Positions 34,153 to 51,746 of a stretch of 64,000 nucleotides of DNA are shown piece after piece. The stretch is from assembly GCF_012844225.1 (NCBI RefSeq), contig NZ_JABAGQ010000012.1, positions 62,001 through 126,000 of the forward strand, written 5' to 3'. This DNA comes from Rhodococcus sp. 105337. Its GTDB lineage: Bacteria; Actinomycetota; Actinomycetes; Mycobacteriales; Mycobacteriaceae. A program made the translations under genes and the position numbers. A model generated the notes under the pieces. The model did no database searches and was not told the origin of the DNA. It saw nothing but the letters and a program-made list of their open reading frames with translations. Each line of letters opens with the position of its first letter. Within the stretch, counting starts at the first letter, position 1.

Positions 34153-35654
34153 GTCTCGCGATGCTCCCCGACCACGTGCACACGCTTGTCGTGGGCGCCG
34201 GCTTCGGCGGAATCGGAACGGCCGCTACCTTGCTGCGCCAGGATCCGGCCGCAGATGTTCTCGTCCTCGAAAGGGGAGACGACGTAGGCGGTACGTGGCG
34301 GGCCAACACCTACCCGGGCGCGGCATGCGACGTCCCGAGCGCGCTGTACTCGTTCTCCTTCGCGCCCGAACCCGATTGGTCGCGTGCCCACGGCACCCAG
34401 GAAGAGATCTACGCCTACCTCCGGCGCGTGGCTCGCGACGAGGGTGTCACCCAGCGCACGGTGTTCGGATGTGAGCTGCGGGAGGCGCAGTGGGACGCCG
34501 CCCGCGCAGTGTGGTCGGTGTCGACGTCCCGCGGCGACCTCACCGCAGACGTGCTCGTCGCCGCAACCGGTGCCCTCTCGACGCCCACCTACCCGAAGGT
34601 TCCCGGACTCGAGTTGTTCCGGGGCAAGACCTTCCACTCCGCCGAATGGGACCACGACCACGACCTCGCCGGTGAACGCGTCGCGGTGATCGGCACCGGG
34701 GCATCGGCCATCCAGTTCGTTCCCGCGATCGTCGATCGCGTCGCCCACCTCACCCTGTTCCAGCGCACCGCGTCGTGGGTCATGCCCAAGCACGATCCCG
34801 CCATCGCGCGCTCGGTCCGGTCGTTGTACCGCCGCTTCCCCTTCACCCAGAAGCTCATGCGGGGCGCTGTATACGGGCAGAAGGAAATCTATGTCGTGGG
34901 CATGACGAAGCCGTTCGCCCGCAAATACCTCCTGCCGTTGTTCGAGCGCCGCGCCCGGCAGGTGCTCCGCAAGCAGGTGCAGGACCCGACGCTGCGCGAG
35001 CGGCTCACGCCCGATTTCGCGATCACCTGCAAGCGGATCCTGCTGTCCAACGAGTGGTTCCCCACCATCACGCGGTCCGATGTGAGCGTGGTGTCGTCCG
35101 GGCTGACCGCGGTGACGGAGAACGGCGTCGTCGACAAGGACGGCAACGAGTACCCGGTGGACACCATCATCTTCGGTACCGGCTTCACGCCGACCGAACC
35201 TCCCGTCGCCCACCACATCCGCGGAACCGACGGTCGCACACTCGCCGAGACGTGGGACGGCAGCCCCGCGGCCCACCTGGGAATCTCGGTACACGGGTTC
35301 CCCAACCTGTTCCTCGTCTACGGACCCAACACCAACCTCGGACACAGCTCGATCGTGTACATGCTCGAATCGCAGGCTGCATATATCGCCGACGCGTTGC
35401 GCACCATGCGATCCCGCGGGATCGCCGCCCTCGAAGTGACCGGGGACGCGCAGCGCCGCTACACCGACGAACTCGATCCGATCCTCGAGGGGACGGTCTG
35501 GAACGCCGGAGGTTGCAGTAGCTGGTACATCGACGAGAAGGGCCGCAACTCCGTGATGTGGCCGACGTTCACCTGGCATTACCGTGCGCGCACGAAGCAG
35601 TTCGATCTCGAGAACTACACGCAGCGGACCGCCGCGGCAGGAGCAACAGCATGA
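34149..35654 (+). CDS. Flavin-dependent Baeyer-Villiger-type monooxygenase
   Basis: A 501-residue class B flavoprotein monooxygenase. The FAD-binding GAGFGGIG lies at residues 16-23, and the BVMO fingerprint FRGKTFHSAEWD (about 157-168) matches FxGxxxHxxxW. The NADPH-binding GTGASAIQ is near 183. Typical reactions insert oxygen next to a ketone, giving an ester or lactone. It is translationally coupled to the TetR gene before it and the GMC oxidoreductase after it. The substrate cannot be read from the sequence; ketones or steroids are likely by family. Confidence 0.9.
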   Translation: MSLAMLPDHVHTLVVGAGFGGIGTAATLLRQDPAADVLVLERGDDVGGTWRANTYPGAACDVPSALYSFSFAPEPDWSRAHGTQEEIYAYLRRVARDEGVTQRTVFGCELREAQWDAARAVWSVSTSRGDLTADVLVAATGALSTPTYPKVPGLELFRGKTFHSAEWDHDHDLAGERVAVIGTGASAIQFVPAIVDRVAHLTLFQRTASWVMPKHDPAIARSVRSLYRRFPFTQKLMRGAVYGQKEIYVVGMTKPFARKYLLPLFERRARQVLRKQVQDPTLRERLTPDFAITCKRILLSNEWFPTITRSDVSVVSSGLTAVTENGVVDKDGNEYPVDTIIFGTGFTPTEPPVAHHIRGTDGRTLAETWDGSPAAHLGISVHGFPNLFLVYGPNTNLGHSSIVYMLESQAAYIADALRTMRSRGIAALEVTGDAQRRYTDELDPILEGTVWNAGGCSSWYIDEKGRNSVMWPTFTWHYRARTKQFDLENYTQRTAAAGATA

Positions 35655-37366
35655 CCCACTTCGACGTTCTCGTGATCGGCTCCGGTTTCGGGGGCAGTGT
35701 CGCCGCGTTACGGCTGACCGAAAAAGGCTACAAGGTAGGCGTTCTCGAAGCGGGCCGTCGCTTCTCGGACGAGGATCTGCCGAAGACCAGCTGGCGGCTG
35801 CGCAAGTACCTGTGGGCACCGGCGCTGGGGTGTTACGGAGTGCAGCGCATGCACCTGCTTCCCGACGTCCTGGTGATGGCCGGGGCAGGCGTCGGCGGTG
35901 GCTCGCTCAACTATGCGAACACGCTGTACAAGCCGCCCACACCCTTCTTCCGGGACCCTCAGTGGGGGCACATCGACGACTGGGAGGCCGAGCTCTCCCC
36001 GTACTACGATCAGGCCGCCCGGATGCTGGGCGTGCGCCCGAACCCCACCACCTCTCCCGCCGACAAGGTGATGCGCGAGGTCGCCGAGGAGATGGGCGCC
36101 GGTGAGACCTTCGTGACCACGCCGGTGGGCGTGTTCTTCGACGAGCCCGGCAAGACCGTGGCGGATCCCTACTTCGGAGGTGCCGGACCCGAGCGCACCG
36201 GCTGCACCGAATGCGGAAGCTGCATGACCGGGTGCCGGGTCGGGGCAAAGAACACCCTGGTGAAGAACTACCTGTACCTCGCGGAACGTGCGGGCGCAGT
36301 GATCCACGCACTGACCACGGTGACTCGGGTGGTTCCCCGCTCCGGTGGTGGCTACGAGGTCCACACCCGGAGCACCGACGGCATTCGTAAGCGCCGCACC
36401 GTGTTCACCGCCGACCACGTGGTCGTCGCCGCCGGCACCTACGGAACCGCGCGCCTGCTTCTCGCGAGCCGCGAGACCGGGGATCTGCCCAATCTGTCGA
36501 GCACCCTCGGAACGGTCGTGCGTACCAACTCCGAGGCGGTACTCGCGGCGACCGCCCGGAATCGCGACGTGGACTACACCGGCGGTGTGGCGATCACGTC
36601 GTCGTTCCATCCCGACGATCACACCCACATCGAACCGGTGCGGTACGGCAAGGGAAGCAATCTCATCGGGATGATCCAGGCGATGCTCGTCGACGGTGGC
36701 GGCCGGGTGCCCCGCCTGGTGAAATTCTTCGGTGTCGCGGCCCGGAATCCGGGTGCGTTCCTGCGGAATCTGTCCGTGCGGAACTGGTCGGAACGTACCG
36801 TGATCGCGCTGGTGATGCAGACGGACGACAACTCCCTCGAACTGAAGACCAGGCGCACCCCGCTCGGTCGCGGGCTGACCAGCAAGCCGGGACCGGGGGA
36901 GCGGCCTCCGGAGTGGATTCCGGTCGGGCACGAGGCGATCCGCCGCATCGCGCAGAAGATCGGAGGCGACCCGGGCGGTTCGATCGTCGACCTGGTCAAC
37001 ATCCCGATGACGGCGCACTTTCTCGGCGGCTGTGCGATCGGTGATTCTCCCGAACGCGGCGTCGTCGACCCGTACCTGCGTGTCTACGGGCACGACGGTC
37101 TGCACGTCGTCGACGGGTCTGTCGTCAGTGCCAACCTCGGGGTCAACCCGTCGCTGACGATCACCGCGCAGGCCGAGCGGGCGATGGCGTTGTGGCCGAA
37201 CAAGGGCGCGAACGACACCCGGCCTCCACTCGGCGCACCCTACGAACCGGTGACGGCGGTTCCTCCCGTGAAGCCCACGGTCCCTGCCGGTGCTCCTGCT
37301 GCGCTCCGACTCCCGATCTATCCGATTCGACGAAAGGACGCAGACCGTGCTGTGGAAAGTGCCTGA
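35651..37366 (+). CDS. GMC oxidoreductase, ChoD/cholesterol-oxidase-like
   Basis: A 571-residue GMC flavoprotein. The FAD-binding GSGFGGS lies at residues 10-16, a cysteine cluster CTECGSCMTGC near 185-195, and the C-terminal active-site region HFLGGCAIGDSPERG near 456, followed by NPSLTITAQAERA. The size and cysteine cluster resemble mycobacterial ChoD (Rv3409c), a putative cholesterol oxidase whose activity is debated. It probably oxidises a secondary alcohol to a ketone, possibly feeding the BVMO. It starts by a 4-nt overlap and itself overlaps the next gene by 20 bp. Confidence 0.87.
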   Translation: MTHFDVLVIGSGFGGSVAALRLTEKGYKVGVLEAGRRFSDEDLPKTSWRLRKYLWAPALGCYGVQRMHLLPDVLVMAGAGVGGGSLNYANTLYKPPTPFFRDPQWGHIDDWEAELSPYYDQAARMLGVRPNPTTSPADKVMREVAEEMGAGETFVTTPVGVFFDEPGKTVADPYFGGAGPERTGCTECGSCMTGCRVGAKNTLVKNYLYLAERAGAVIHALTTVTRVVPRSGGGYEVHTRSTDGIRKRRTVFTADHVVVAAGTYGTARLLLASRETGDLPNLSSTLGTVVRTNSEAVLAATARNRDVDYTGGVAITSSFHPDDHTHIEPVRYGKGSNLIGMIQAMLVDGGGRVPRLVKFFGVAARNPGAFLRNLSVRNWSERTVIALVMQTDDNSLELKTRRTPLGRGLTSKPGPGERPPEWIPVGHEAIRRIAQKIGGDPGGSIVDLVNIPMTAHFLGGCAIGDSPERGVVDPYLRVYGHDGLHVVDGSVVSANLGVNPSLTITAQAERAMALWPNKGANDTRPPLGAPYEPVTAVPPVKPTVPAGAPAALRLPIYPIRRKDADRAVESA

Positions 37367-37976: not shown

Positions 37977-37980
37977 ACCG

Positions 37981-38021
37981 GTATGCCCCTTTTCTTGACT
38001 AATTCCAGAAAAGGGGCATAC
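37981..38021. promoter_or_regulatory. 14-bp inverted repeat over the fur promoter (autoregulatory operator)
   Basis: GTATGCCCCTTTTC (37981-37994) and GAAAAGGGGCATAC (38008-38021) are perfect arms around 13 bp that include a -35 TTGACT (37995-38000). A -10 CATACT (38017-38022) overlaps the right arm. The start codon follows 7 nt later at 38030. A protein bound here would cover the whole promoter. Confidence 0.75.
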
Positions 38022-38029
38022 TGGGTCCC

Positions 38030-38458
38030 ATGCAACGAATGGACGGGCACCACTTCGACCCCACGGAACAACTGCGTTCCGCGGGCCTGCGGGTGACGGC
38101 TCCGCGAGTTGCCGTGCTGGGAACGGTTGCCGAGCATCCTCATTCGGATGCCGACCACATCGCCGCCCGAGTGCGGGAGACTCTCGGATCCGTGTCCACC
38201 CAGGCTGTATACGACGTTCTGAAGGCGTGTGTGGGTGCCGGACTGCTCCGGCGAATCGAACCTGCCGGATCGGCGGCCCGGTACGAGACGCGCATCGGCG
38301 ACAACCACCACCACCTCGTCTGCAGGAACTGCGGTTCGGTGGTCGACATCGACTGCGTCGTCGGCGCGGCGCCGTGCCTGACCCCATCCGACGACCACGG
38401 TTTCGTCGTCGACGAAGCCGAAGTCACCTTCTGGGGCCTGTGCGCGAACTGCCGCTAG
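38030..38458 (+). CDS. Fur family regulator (FurA/CatR type), probable catalase repressor
   Basis: A 142-residue Fur protein with a winged helix (residues 14-85), a metal-site region [10 protein letters not shown] (near 95) and a second CxxC (LCANC) that together form the structural zinc site. The N-terminal [10 protein letters not shown] is typical. The mRNA is probably leaderless. It is followed 116 bp later by a catalase gene. This is the FurA-KatG / CatR-CatA arrangement in which the regulator represses itself and the peroxidase until oxidised. The large palindrome in its promoter is the likely target. Confidence 0.9.
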
Positions 38459-40141: not shown

Positions 40142-40174
40142 CTCGATTCCGTGCGTCGAAAGGTGTTGTGCGAG

Positions 40175-40984
40175 ATGGTGATGGGCCCAACCCATGCAGT
40201 GTCAGGGGCGCTCGTCGGCCTCATCGTCGCCGATGTGCTTCCCCGCGAATGGGGCGGGCCGACCTCGACGGCCGAGGCCTTCGCGTTCGCGGCCGTCTGT
40301 TCCGGCGCAGCACTGTTACCCGACCTCGACACGGCGCAATCGACCGTGTCGCGTTCGTTCGGCCCGATCAGTCAGGTCGCGGCGCGAGGGATCGACAAGG
40401 TGTCGCTGGGGTACTACTCGATCACCAAGGGCCGGCGCGACGGAAAGCGTCGTGGGGGGCACCGCACGATGACCCACACCGCGCTGTTCGCTGCTCTGCT
40501 CGGTACGGGGGTGTCCCTGCTCGTCGCGCGATTCGACCGGGCAGCAGTCATCGCGGTCCTCTTTGTGACCCTGGGCCTGGCATTGCGGGGGTTGTTCGGT
40601 AACTGGGCGAAGAAGAACGGGTGGTTCACCGTCACGGCTGTCGCGGCGGTGCTGTCGATCCTCACGTGGCGGTGGTTCCCGGGGGAGGTGGGGTCGACCG
40701 GGCTCGGTGTCGCGGTGGCGCTGGGATGCGTGACGCACTGTATCGGCGACGCCATCACGAAGGAGGGGATTCCCTTCCTTGCACCGTTCGTCCCGTGGAG
40801 AGGTTCCCGATGGTGGGAGATCAAACTCCCGAAGATGATCGCGATCAGGGCCGGAGGGCCGTTCGAAATGGGGATCCTCGGTCCCGCACTGACCCTCGCG
40901 ACCGTGGCTTTTGCCGTGTGGTCCATCGACGGTGCTCCCGAGTACATCATGGAGACCCTCGAGGCTTCCGGTCTCGCGTTCTAG
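40175..40984 (+). CDS. YdjM-type membrane-bound putative metal-dependent hydrolase (PF04307)
   Basis: A 269-residue membrane protein. The motif MGPTHAVSGA at the N-terminus, LLPDLDTAQSTVSR (near residue 50), GGHRTMTHT (near 98) and THCIGDAITKEGIPFLAPF (near 190) give the His/Asp pattern of the LexA-regulated, membrane-bound hydrolase family PF04307. Catalytic activity is predicted only. Several hydrophobic segments lie between the motifs. Start at ATG 40175, with AAAGG 11 nt upstream; ATG 40181 is also possible. No SOS-type operator is apparent before it. Confidence 0.85.
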   Translation: MVMGPTHAVSGALVGLIVADVLPREWGGPTSTAEAFAFAAVCSGAALLPDLDTAQSTVSRSFGPISQVAARGIDKVSLGYYSITKGRRDGKRRGGHRTMTHTALFAALLGTGVSLLVARFDRAAVIAVLFVTLGLALRGLFGNWAKKNGWFTVTAVAAVLSILTWRWFPGEVGSTGLGVAVALGCVTHCIGDAITKEGIPFLAPFVPWRGSRWWEIKLPKMIAIRAGGPFEMGILGPALTLATVAFAVWSIDGAPEYIMETLEASGLAF

Positions 40985-41041
40985 CCTCGCGTCCTGACGA
41001 GGTAGCGCCGCCTCACAACCGGGCGGTCCGAACTCGGGGAA

Positions 41042-41117
41042 CTGTCGGGCTGCCGGGCTATGGCCTAAAAAGAGAACTTGTTCTATTTTTAGGCCATAGC
41101 CCGGCTCGTCCCGACAG
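41042..41117. promoter_or_regulatory. Long hairpin with a central KstR-like box before the cholesterol oxidase
   Basis: CCGGGCTATGGCCTAAAAA (41053-41071) and its exact complement (41086-41104) form a 19-bp stem. An inner palindrome AGAAC-TT-GTTCT (41073-41084) lies inside, and outer arms CTGTCGGG / CCCGACAG (41042-41049, 41110-41117) outside. The centre GAGAACTTGTTCTA (41072-41085) matches the KstR consensus TnnAACnnGTTnnA except for the first base. KstR represses cholesterol-degradation genes in rhodococci and mycobacteria. The hairpin ends 16 bp before the start codon. Confidence 0.65.
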
Positions 41118-41133
41118 AACGGAGCTCGCCACC

Positions 41134-42882
41134 GTGAGCATTCGCGCCTCTGGCCCCATCCTCAGTCGCCGTGGTCTTCTCGGTGCCGCGGCCGGCGCCG
41201 CGCTCGTGATGGGGACAGGGTGGAGCCGCGCGGGTGCTGTGCCGCTCGGCGATCCGGCCGCGACCATCGCGGCGCCCCCGAACTTCCCCGCGGACATTCC
41301 GCTCGCGCAGCAGCGATTCGTCAACTGGGCGAAGACGATCGAATTCGACGCAGTGTGGACCGCGACTGCCCGTGACGCCCAGGACATCGTGCGGCTGGCC
41401 GACTGGGCGCGGATCCACGGCTTCCGGATTCGGCCGCGCGGCTCCATGCACAGCTGGAGCCCCCTCACCCTCGAAGCCGGGCAGAACGTCGAGAAGGTCG
41501 TCCTGGTGGACACCATGTCGCAACTGAATTCTGTATCGGTCGATCCCACCGGCGATCCGGCGACGGTCACCGCCGACGCCGGCGCGAGCATCGAAGCCAT
41601 CCTGAGCGCCCTCCAGCAGGAGGGGTTCGGCTGGGCGAATTCCCCGGCCATCGGGGATATCTCGATCGCCGGTGCGCTGTCGATCGGAGCACACGGCTCC
41701 ACGTACCCCGCCGCGGGTGAGACGGTCGTTCCCGGCCAGTCGTTCGGGTCGCTGTCGAACCTCGTGCTCGCCCTCACCGCCGTTGTATGGAACGACGCCG
41801 CGGGGTCTTACGAACTGCGCGAGTTCCGTCGCTCCGACGCCGAAATCACGCCCCTGCTCGCGCACCTCGGACGAACCTTCGTCACCTCGGTCACGTTGCA
41901 GGCCGGCGCGAACTACCGCGTGCGCTGCCAGAGTTCCACCGACGTGCCGTGGCGCGAACTCTTCGCCCCGCCCGGTGCGCCGGGCCGCACGTTCGAAAGC
42001 TACGTCGAACAACACGGACGCGTCGAAGCGATCTGGTTTCCGTTCACGGAGACGCCGTGGCTCAAGACCTGGTCGGTCAGTCCGGAGAAACCGGCAGAGT
42101 CGCGTGAGGTCTTCGGTCCCTATCCCTACGTGTTCTCCGACTCCATCCCCGAACCGGTGACCGATGCGCTCGCTCAGGTGGCGAGCGGCAACCAGGCCAT
42201 CACCCCCGCGTTCGGTGCCTCTCAGTTCGGCGCCGTCGCAGCCGGACTCGTAGCCACCGACACCAGCGATCTGTGGGGATGGTCGAAAGACCTGATGTTC
42301 TACCTTCGTGCCACCACGTTGCGGGTCGTCGCCGGTGGAGGCGTGGTGGTGACCCGGCGCGAGAACATCGCGCAGGTCATCCACGAATTCACGACGTGGC
42401 TGCACGAGCGGATGACGTACTACGCGTCGCTCGGGCAGTATCCGGTCAACATGCCGTTCGAAGTCCGGTTGTGCCGTGTCGACGACCAATCAGAGGTCCT
42501 CACCGATTCGGCAGGGGCTCCGAATCTTTCACCGGTGCGTCCCCGGCCCGACCGTCCGGACTGGGACACCGCGATCTGGATGAACGTCGTGTCGATTCCG
42601 GGCACCGCGGGACTGTCCGCCTTCTTCCGCGAGATGGAACAGTGGATGGCCGACCGCTACTCGGGCGACTACGCGACCTTCCGATCCGAATGGTCGAAGG
42701 GGTGGGCCTTCGACAACGAGGGCGGGTACCGCGACGCCGGTTTCCTCGGCGGCACCATCCCCGCGATGTATCGCGAGGGCTTGTCGTCCGACGAGGGCTG
42801 GGACGCCGCCCTGGCGGCGTTCGATCGCCACGACCCCCATCGCGTGTTCAGCAACGACTTCCTCGACCGTCTGCTGCCCTGA
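41134..42882 (+). CDS. Secreted type II (VAO-family) cholesterol oxidase
   Basis: A 582-residue protein beginning with a Tat-type signal (SRRGLLGAAAGAALVMG after nine residues). A VAO/PCMH FAD-binding domain follows with RPRGSMHSWSPLT (about residues 100-112), whose His is the covalent FAD attachment residue in Brevibacterium type II cholesterol oxidase. A large cholesterol-oxidase substrate domain runs to the C-terminus. The enzyme oxidises and isomerises cholesterol to cholest-4-en-3-one outside the membrane. Start GTG 41134 with CGGAG nine bases upstream. The promoter carries a KstR-like box, supporting a role in sterol catabolism. It is unrelated to the GMC-type oxidase at 35651. Confidence 0.9.
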   Translation: MSIRASGPILSRRGLLGAAAGAALVMGTGWSRAGAVPLGDPAATIAAPPNFPADIPLAQQRFVNWAKTIEFDAVWTATARDAQDIVRLADWARIHGFRIRPRGSMHSWSPLTLEAGQNVEKVVLVDTMSQLNSVSVDPTGDPATVTADAGASIEAILSALQQEGFGWANSPAIGDISIAGALSIGAHGSTYPAAGETVVPGQSFGSLSNLVLALTAVVWNDAAGSYELREFRRSDAEITPLLAHLGRTFVTSVTLQAGANYRVRCQSSTDVPWRELFAPPGAPGRTFESYVEQHGRVEAIWFPFTETPWLKTWSVSPEKPAESREVFGPYPYVFSDSIPEPVTDALAQVASGNQAITPAFGASQFGAVAAGLVATDTSDLWGWSKDLMFYLRATTLRVVAGGGVVVTRRENIAQVIHEFTTWLHERMTYYASLGQYPVNMPFEVRLCRVDDQSEVLTDSAGAPNLSPVRPRPDRPDWDTAIWMNVVSIPGTAGLSAFFREMEQWMADRYSGDYATFRSEWSKGWAFDNEGGYRDAGFLGGTIPAMYREGLSSDEGWDAALAAFDRHDPHRVFSNDFLDRLLP

Positions 42883-51662: not shown

Positions 51663-51689
51663 CGGCGATACCTCATAACCCGTAAACGA

Positions 51690-51724
51690 GCGAGCCCGGG
51701 ACGCGTGTCGCGTCCCGGGCTCGC
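51690..51724. terminator. Bidirectional terminator between the MBL gene and crp
   Basis: GCGAGCCCGGGACGCG and CGCGTCCCGGGCTCGC form a perfect 16-bp stem around TGT. It serves both convergent genes. Confidence 0.8.
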
Positions 51725-51746
51725 CCGTGTGTCGTGATGCCGCGTG

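Follow-up and report, generated by a model that had tools for sequence, protein, structure and literature searches.

The oxidase gene and the palindrome in front of it

The locus lies in a 64-kb stretch of Rhodococcus sp. 105337 DNA (the window), where a gene on the forward strand encodes a product that is, by family, a VAO-type cholesterol oxidase. Both the substrate-binding domain (PF09129, 489.7 bits) and the FAD-binding domain (PF01565, 44 bits) are present, and the protein matches cholesterol oxidase structures (1i19_A, E = 7.3e-210). The features considered in this study are as follows, in window coordinates.

40151-40984, forward: gene for a YdjM-type membrane protein, upstream neighbor of the oxidase gene (reading frame and family search)
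41042-41049, forward: outer left arm of the palindrome, CTGTCGGG, pairing at 8 of 8 positions with the outer right arm
41049-41071, forward: position of the CCACTGG dyad (putative TetR operator) in nine of 18 genus promoters; lost here, the center keeping only TGG
41052-41077, forward: inner left arm; R. coprophilus has the same bases from CGGGCTATGG inwards as far as AGAAC
41072-41085, forward: KstR-like box, GAGAACTTGTTCTA; core kept in 17 of 18 genus genomes
41080-41105, forward: inner right arm, 26 nt, pairing with 41052-41077
41084-41089, forward: putative -10 element, TATTTT, at the palindrome center; invariant in 18 of 18 orthologous promoters
41110-41117, forward: outer right arm, CCCGACAG, common to R. 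coprophilus and R. yananensis
41121-41124, forward: GGAG, likely ribosome-binding site (by eye)
41134-42882, forward: VAO-type (type II) cholesterol oxidase, 582 amino acids, likely orthologue of R. erythropolis ChoRII (domains, structures, relatives)

An orthologue of the oxidase is present in all 18 genomes of the genus that we compared (in pieces in G005, a genome that is 75% complete), and the R. coprophilus protein is 93% identical to it. The gene is likely orthologous to that of ChoRII (RER_04530) from R. erythropolis PR4, a member of the same VAO family whose oxidase activity has been shown (PMC7588053, available portions). The oxidase of R. erythropolis NBRC 15567 (L108) is 67% identical to the window protein; its mature part starts with VPWGSAS, as the published ChoRII primer encodes, and both it and ChoRII are 588 amino acids long. 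The available portions of that paper contain no word beginning 'promoter' or 'regulat' and leave promoters and regulators untreated.

The genome of the window species contains a VAO-type paralogue (C8:89112-90854; 57% identity to the window oxidase), upstream of which are two reading frames on the same strand and an exact KstR box that lies in the first part of a crudely called frame. With its upstream frames known by position only, the paralogue's locus resembles the R. ruber kstD3-hsd4B-choG operon, for which KstR boxes are described in the accessible text of PMC5348764; the window gene differs in being the other paralogue, with its own promoter. A GMC-type oxidoreductase frame (window 35558-37366), ChoD-like by eye only, is 4 kb from the VAO-type enzyme.

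Directly upstream of the oxidase gene is a palindrome of 76 nt (41042-41117), which we read directly and checked base by base. Its 3' end is 16 bp before the GTG start codon at 41134, in agreement with an earlier note on this DNA made from the letters alone. The inner arms are 26 nt each and 25/26 complementary around a TT loop (41078-41079). Their outer section pairs perfectly over 20 bp (41052-41071 with 41086-41105), so that the earlier note was right about the palindrome and one base pair short in giving a perfect stem of 19 bp. Inside this section come a single mismatch, G41072 against A41085, and then 5 bp of AGAAC/GTTCT; the inner AGAAC-TT-GTTCT palindrome and the outer 8-bp arms (8/8 pairs) had been correctly seen. 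The spacers between inner and outer arms are unequal, CT on the left and TCGT on the right. The sole inner-stem mismatch falls on the base at which the KstR-like box departs from its consensus, and A41085 is also the second base of the putative -10.

No other near-perfect inverted repeat in the window is as long as the palindrome, which ranks first among the 27 inverted repeats found there (best 25 of 27 listed). One other of those listed is equally long (26 nt), but it is 77% complementary. With up to one mismatch and loops no longer than 8 allowed, no other place in the window had more than 19 pairs (scan in 150-base stretches). As DNA, the palindrome folds at -37.9 kcal/mol, compared with -11.2 +/- 2.23 for shuffled sequences (z = -11.97; 0/200 shuffles as good). 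The next longest near-perfect hairpin in the window is at 51686-51728 (20-nt arms, 95%, 3-nt loop). Separately, the GTG start and some of the likely ribosome-binding site fall inside a small predicted hairpin (41122-41139, GAGCTCGCCACCGTGAGC) whose sequence is common to R. coprophilus.

A conserved core and the case for KstR

The box at 41072-41085 fits TnnAACnnGTTnnA, the operator consensus given for KstR in sterol catabolism genes (PMC5348764 and PMC8228715, available portions), at every position except the first, which is G; the single departure had been noticed previously. Because six places in the 64 kb match this consensus with at most one mismatch, such sequences are not rare, and we dropped the consensus as a sole test as too weak.

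The core GAACTTGTTCTATTTT is conserved at the oxidase gene, once per genome, in 17 of the 18 genus genomes: the pattern RAACWTGTTCTATTTT gave one match per genome, always in the oxidase promoter, and its reversed control gave none. The exception is R. yananensis (G010), which has AAC-TTT-GTT instead of AAC-N2-GTT. We aligned and then anchored the 18 promoters, taking that of G005 from a second contig; the block AGAACTTGTTCTATTTT has a mean column identity of 0.95, against 0.52 and 0.59 for the flanks and 0.65 for the region of a second dyad discussed below. AAC is 94-100% conserved across the 18 promoters, as compared with 56% for the pair of bases preceding GAAC.

In the R. erythropolis group (seven promoters from six genomes), AAC-N2-GTT is lost in five promoters and kept in two, both of which carry the full KstR consensus (TAGAACTTGTTCTA and TGGAACTTGTTCTA). 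All seven retain TTGTTCTA or TGTTCTA. Because these bases persist in promoters without the AAC half, the promoter itself may account for some of the conservation. AAC-N2-GTT was absent from four of four more distant promoters (L129, L130, L131 and L141). Outside these counted groups, none of the oxidase loci examined, 47 of 66 (paralogues and distant oxidases), had the core within 200 bases; several of the 47 come from the same genomes as G001-G017 and therefore add no extra evidence. The loci left out of the 66 were L102, L118, L121, L124-L126, L128, L133, L134, L136, L144, L146-L150, L154, L157 and L158. Thus the comparison with related genomes that the earlier note had proposed as a check found the core in 17 of 18 orthologous promoters of the genus, 2 of 7 in the next group and 0 of 4 beyond.

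KstR itself is encoded in the genome (NF033703, 333.4 bits, cut-off 280), and the nearest solved chains to this protein are KstR. Its gene has its own exact box, TAGAACACGTTCTA, located between it and an acyl-CoA dehydrogenase gene. The exact consensus TNNAACNNGTTNNA occurs at 33 places in the genome, compared with 13 for its reversed control, and GAACNNGTTCTA gives 21 strand matches (18 places), compared with 2 in the control. Nine of these 18 places, the oxidase box among them, are without T at position 1. Three of the nine precede, by 48-78 bp, reading frames for an MlaE-family permease (GTGAACACGTTCTA), an SDR (AGGAACACGTTCTA) and an FMO (GAGAACGTGTTCTA), and a G at position 1 therefore does not by itself exclude KstR. 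The other places without this T are G000:C1:279117, C1:617247, C10:21964, C10:35683 and C22:198684.

The box nevertheless scores low. It reaches 16.8 bits, whereas twelve exact boxes score 20.7-24.7 (leave-one-out) in a comparison that favors them through preselection by the consensus; its center TT is unlike any of theirs. Some of the twelve fall inside crudely called reading frames, so not all of them are placed in promoters. The oxidase box ranks 21st in the 339,864 bases (approximately 340 kb) scored with our own weight matrix, a measure that is biased because the twelve sites were picked by exact consensus and the scored region was chosen around such sites.

Compared with the KstR operators in the accessible text of PMC5348764 and PMC8228715, the oxidase box is alike in its AAC-N2-GTT core, in its position in the promoter of a sterol gene, and in a genome that encodes KstR. 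It differs by the G at position 1, by its TT center, by the invariant TATTTT on its 3' side and by being a once-per-genome sequence, and it is known by sequence only. The proposal in the earlier note that the gene belongs to the KstR regulon thus gains from the 17 of 18 conserved promoters, the encoded KstR and the family of the gene, and loses from the low box score and from the 2 of 7 and 0 of 4 promoters in the more distant groups. On balance, control of the oxidase gene by KstR is plausible and, strengthened by the conservation, seems to us rather probable. The KstR-like box overlaps the putative -10, and KstR would repress the oxidase until sterol degradation products appear.

A second dyad and a candidate TetR-family regulator

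The aligned promoters of relatives show a second dyad, WTTCGNNGCCACTGGYATCGAAW, with a CCACTGG core, just upstream of the box. Of its 13 possible pairs, nine of the 18 genus promoters form 7-11, and every one of the 11 promoters from two other groups forms 9-11. In the seven further genus promoters with CTGG the count is 3-4, about what chance would give, and the window and R. coprophilus keep only TATGG at this position. The dyad arms vary by group and are mostly paired (TTTCG/CGAAA, TTCCGA/TCGGAA, ATTACG/CGTAAT, GATGCC/GGCATC). The C of CTGG is 21 nt before TTCTA in all of the promoters with CTGG, 16/16 in the genus and 7/7 in the R. erythropolis group.

We searched the 18 genomes with a 23-base pattern of the dyad, built from the nine oxidase promoters that it matched. 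At up to two mismatches there were 24 places, comprising those nine promoters and 15 places beside one TetR gene. A third mismatch added three further TetR places and 13 scattered ones, and the reversed control gave one match in all. We rejected the idea of a widespread motif, since a 13-base form of the dyad was near its control (37 and 27 matches), whereas the 23-base pattern was specific. The dyad is about 63-80 bp from the start of the TetR gene in 18 of 18 genomes (three with three mismatches), some of these starts being corrected for residues missing at the match end. At the three TetR loci compared (G000, G011 and G010), the gene on the other side is the same one, as judged by its start; in the genome of the window species (G000) it encodes an old-yellow-enzyme family protein (PF00724). 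There the two genes are divergent with the CCACTGG dyad between them (G000:C30:226712-228559; L237:4713-6560), the TetR gene occupying C30:228005-228556. The window species thus retains the TetR gene and its own dyad (C30:227920-227942), and its oxidase promoter, when tested for the dyad present in 9 of 18 genus promoters, is without the site. The protein reached the Pfam cut-off only for TetR_N and no NCBIfam cut-off.

The association extends to further genomes. In strains EPR-157 and BP22 a TetR orthologue (54-56%) is encoded next to and divergently from the oxidase gene, and the dyad lies in the interval; R. erythropolis and R. globerulus have the dyad at both the TetR and the oxidase promoters. 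A shorter, 14-base dyad pattern gave 15 matches in eight other genomes, 7 of them away from these promoters. At E up to 1e-20, neither G067 nor G068 yielded a TetR orthologue; the short pattern had no match in G068 and two in G067, away from the oxidase gene. These absences say little, as the oxidases of the two genomes are only 57-58% identical. R. equi (G066) has a TetR orthologue (70%) but no CCACTGG dyad beside its gene; by eye, another dyad-like stretch, ACCAACACCGTGTCGGT, is found upstream of the TetR gene there (L256).

From its position and uniqueness, the CCACTGG dyad is very likely the operator of this old-yellow-enzyme-linked TetR protein, with the oxidase gene as one of few targets. 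A TetR gene that controls few genes, one of them divergent from it, is a known arrangement. The pair described here is alike, with the TetR gene divergent from the old-yellow-enzyme gene and the dyad between them; it is different in that the second target would be a distant sterol oxidase gene. In the open-licence PMC literature searched, we found no description of the oxidase promoter, the palindrome or the TetR protein, which looks like an undescribed regulator. Regulators besides KstR and KstR2 have been proposed to act on kshA1 and kshA2 in R. ruber (PMC8228715, accessible text). The TetR protein is a concrete candidate for a sterol-oxidase regulator beside KstR, and we believe that this link is the part most worth following. 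A KstR-type operator, a template-switch palindrome and a TetR-divergent pair are all known kinds of element.

The putative TetR operator would have decayed at the oxidase promoter in the window species and eight congeners. The site may have been lost in the group containing the window species, R. coprophilus and R. gordoniae, and the KstR half-site in most of the R. erythropolis group. A fuller account, to which we give an even chance, is that TetR has a small regulon (the old yellow enzyme and the ChoRII-type oxidase), that ancestral promoters had both sites and lineages lost one of them, and that in the window species a template switch later copied the decayed element in inverted form across the promoter, a mutational process thereby rebuilding a promoter-operator in one or two steps.

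Origin of the arms and alternative readings

The long arms were found only in the window species among those compared. The longest stem with one mismatch has 25 pairs here and 13 in R. coprophilus NBRC 100603 (G016); nine other promoters also have their longest stem across the box, with 6-9 pairs, and the other 16 promoter stretches have no stem longer than 11 pairs anywhere. R. coprophilus keeps the left arm CGGGCTATGGCCTAAAAAGAGAAC without change and has a different right arm: where the window reads AGGCCATAGCCCGGC (41091-41105), reverse-complementing its left arm, R. coprophilus has AGGGACCTGGTACCGGC. CCATAGC in the right-arm position was absent, by eye, from the other aligned promoters. 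The left arm is the same in R. coprophilus from CGGGCTATGG inwards, its outermost two bases differing; at the outer left arm R. coprophilus has GTGTCGAT, which shares 5/8 bases (TGTCG), and the flanks of the palindrome align to that species.

A template-switch extension is most likely the best reading of these arms, with its polarity coming mainly from one sister species. The right arm reverse-complements the left over the changed bases while the source arm is unchanged in the sister, and an imperfect inverted repeat is already there in relatives. The starting state would have been a short, imperfect palindrome surrounding the box, such as the 6-9 pairs seen in nine relatives or the 13 in R. 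coprophilus, and a replication template switch in the lineage of the window species would have copied the left arm into the right, giving 25 pairs. The unequal outer spacers mean that a single switch cannot account for all 76 bases; for the outer arms, a second event or coincidence has to be assumed. Quasipalindrome mutations by template switching are known in E. coli (PMC7202029, accessible text) and are alike in that an imperfect inverted repeat is made more perfect by copying arm into arm; those cases occurred in a reporter, whereas the present one would have arisen between species at a natural promoter-operator. Because the polarity comes mainly from one sister, there is some room for an ancestral long palindrome that was lost in the relatives. 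A repeat-family or mobile origin was rejected: at E up to 0.001, a 106-base stretch matched only the oxidase promoter, in 11 of 61 genomes.

Taken together, we somewhat favor an explanation in which the center (41072-41089) is an old KstR-like promoter-operator, the long arms are young and of template-switch origin, and the TetR dyad has decayed here and been kept in about half of the relatives. Core and arms would then differ in history, and the arm symmetry beyond the box would not be part of the KstR switch. Alternatively, the center may be only a promoter (a -35 like CTGGCA, 17-18 nt, then TATTTT), with AAC-TT-GTT a site for some regulator that is not KstR, or for no regulator at all. This is unlikely, though it draws on the persistence of TGTTCTA in the R. 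erythropolis group, in which most promoters have lost the AAC half, on the fixed CTGG-TTCTA spacing and on a box that scores under the exact ones; it sits poorly with the much stronger conservation of AAC than of the bases before GAAC, with the full consensus in two R. erythropolis-group promoters, and with a sterol gene in a genome that encodes KstR. As a consensus scan found no sigma-70 promoter, the -10 that both readings use is an assignment from conservation and spacing.

The remaining alternatives concern the arms. That they are under selection, either as binding sites (for a further factor or another KstR dimer) or as a promoter-tuning cruciform, with the right arm as an inverted second upstream element, would suit the very strong symmetry and the fact that the right arm inverts the region that holds the second dyad in relatives. 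We regard it as improbable given that the arms are present in 1 of 18 genus promoters, that the element copied was already a decayed dyad, and that in the 61 genomes the 106-base stretch matched at no other kind of place. Still less probable is an RNA hairpin that limits translation or ends upstream transcripts. The RNA of 41036-41150 does fold strongly (-71.2 kcal/mol, z = -9.04), but the putative -10 is at the loop, so that a transcript would begin in and hold only the right arm, which makes a hairpin unlikely, and RNA 41095-41170, as it would start from this -10, folds like shuffled sequence (z = -0.09; 80/200 as good). The full stem is present in only 1 of 18 promoters, being missing in the relatives. 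We rejected a terminator or RNA element, since the terminator scan found no terminator and no Rfam family reached its gathering score; the six Rfam matches were miRNA precursors below gathering scores, as long hairpins tend to give. The arms thus probably do not act as RNA, and the full hairpin would form only through read-through from the YdjM-type gene ending at 40984. Accordingly, the earlier suggestion that the extra arms may bind a further factor or form an RNA hairpin was not supported, the right arm being absent even from the nearest relative compared and the putative -10 falling inside the palindrome. An assembly artefact (a foldback chimera) is hardly credible: the palindrome is known from one assembly of the species, but its arms are 26 nt, it lies mid-contig (C4:103042-103117 of 145,940), it is imperfect at G41072/A41085 and in the outer spacers, and its flanks align to R. 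coprophilus.

The favored explanation separates an old regulatory core from a young symmetry that looks functional and probably is not, and it cautions against reading long palindromes as operators. Elsewhere in the window, a 21-nt inverted repeat (90%; 37978-38024) directly 5' of a Fur-family frame at 38030 is also present in R. coprophilus (L190:7006-7052).
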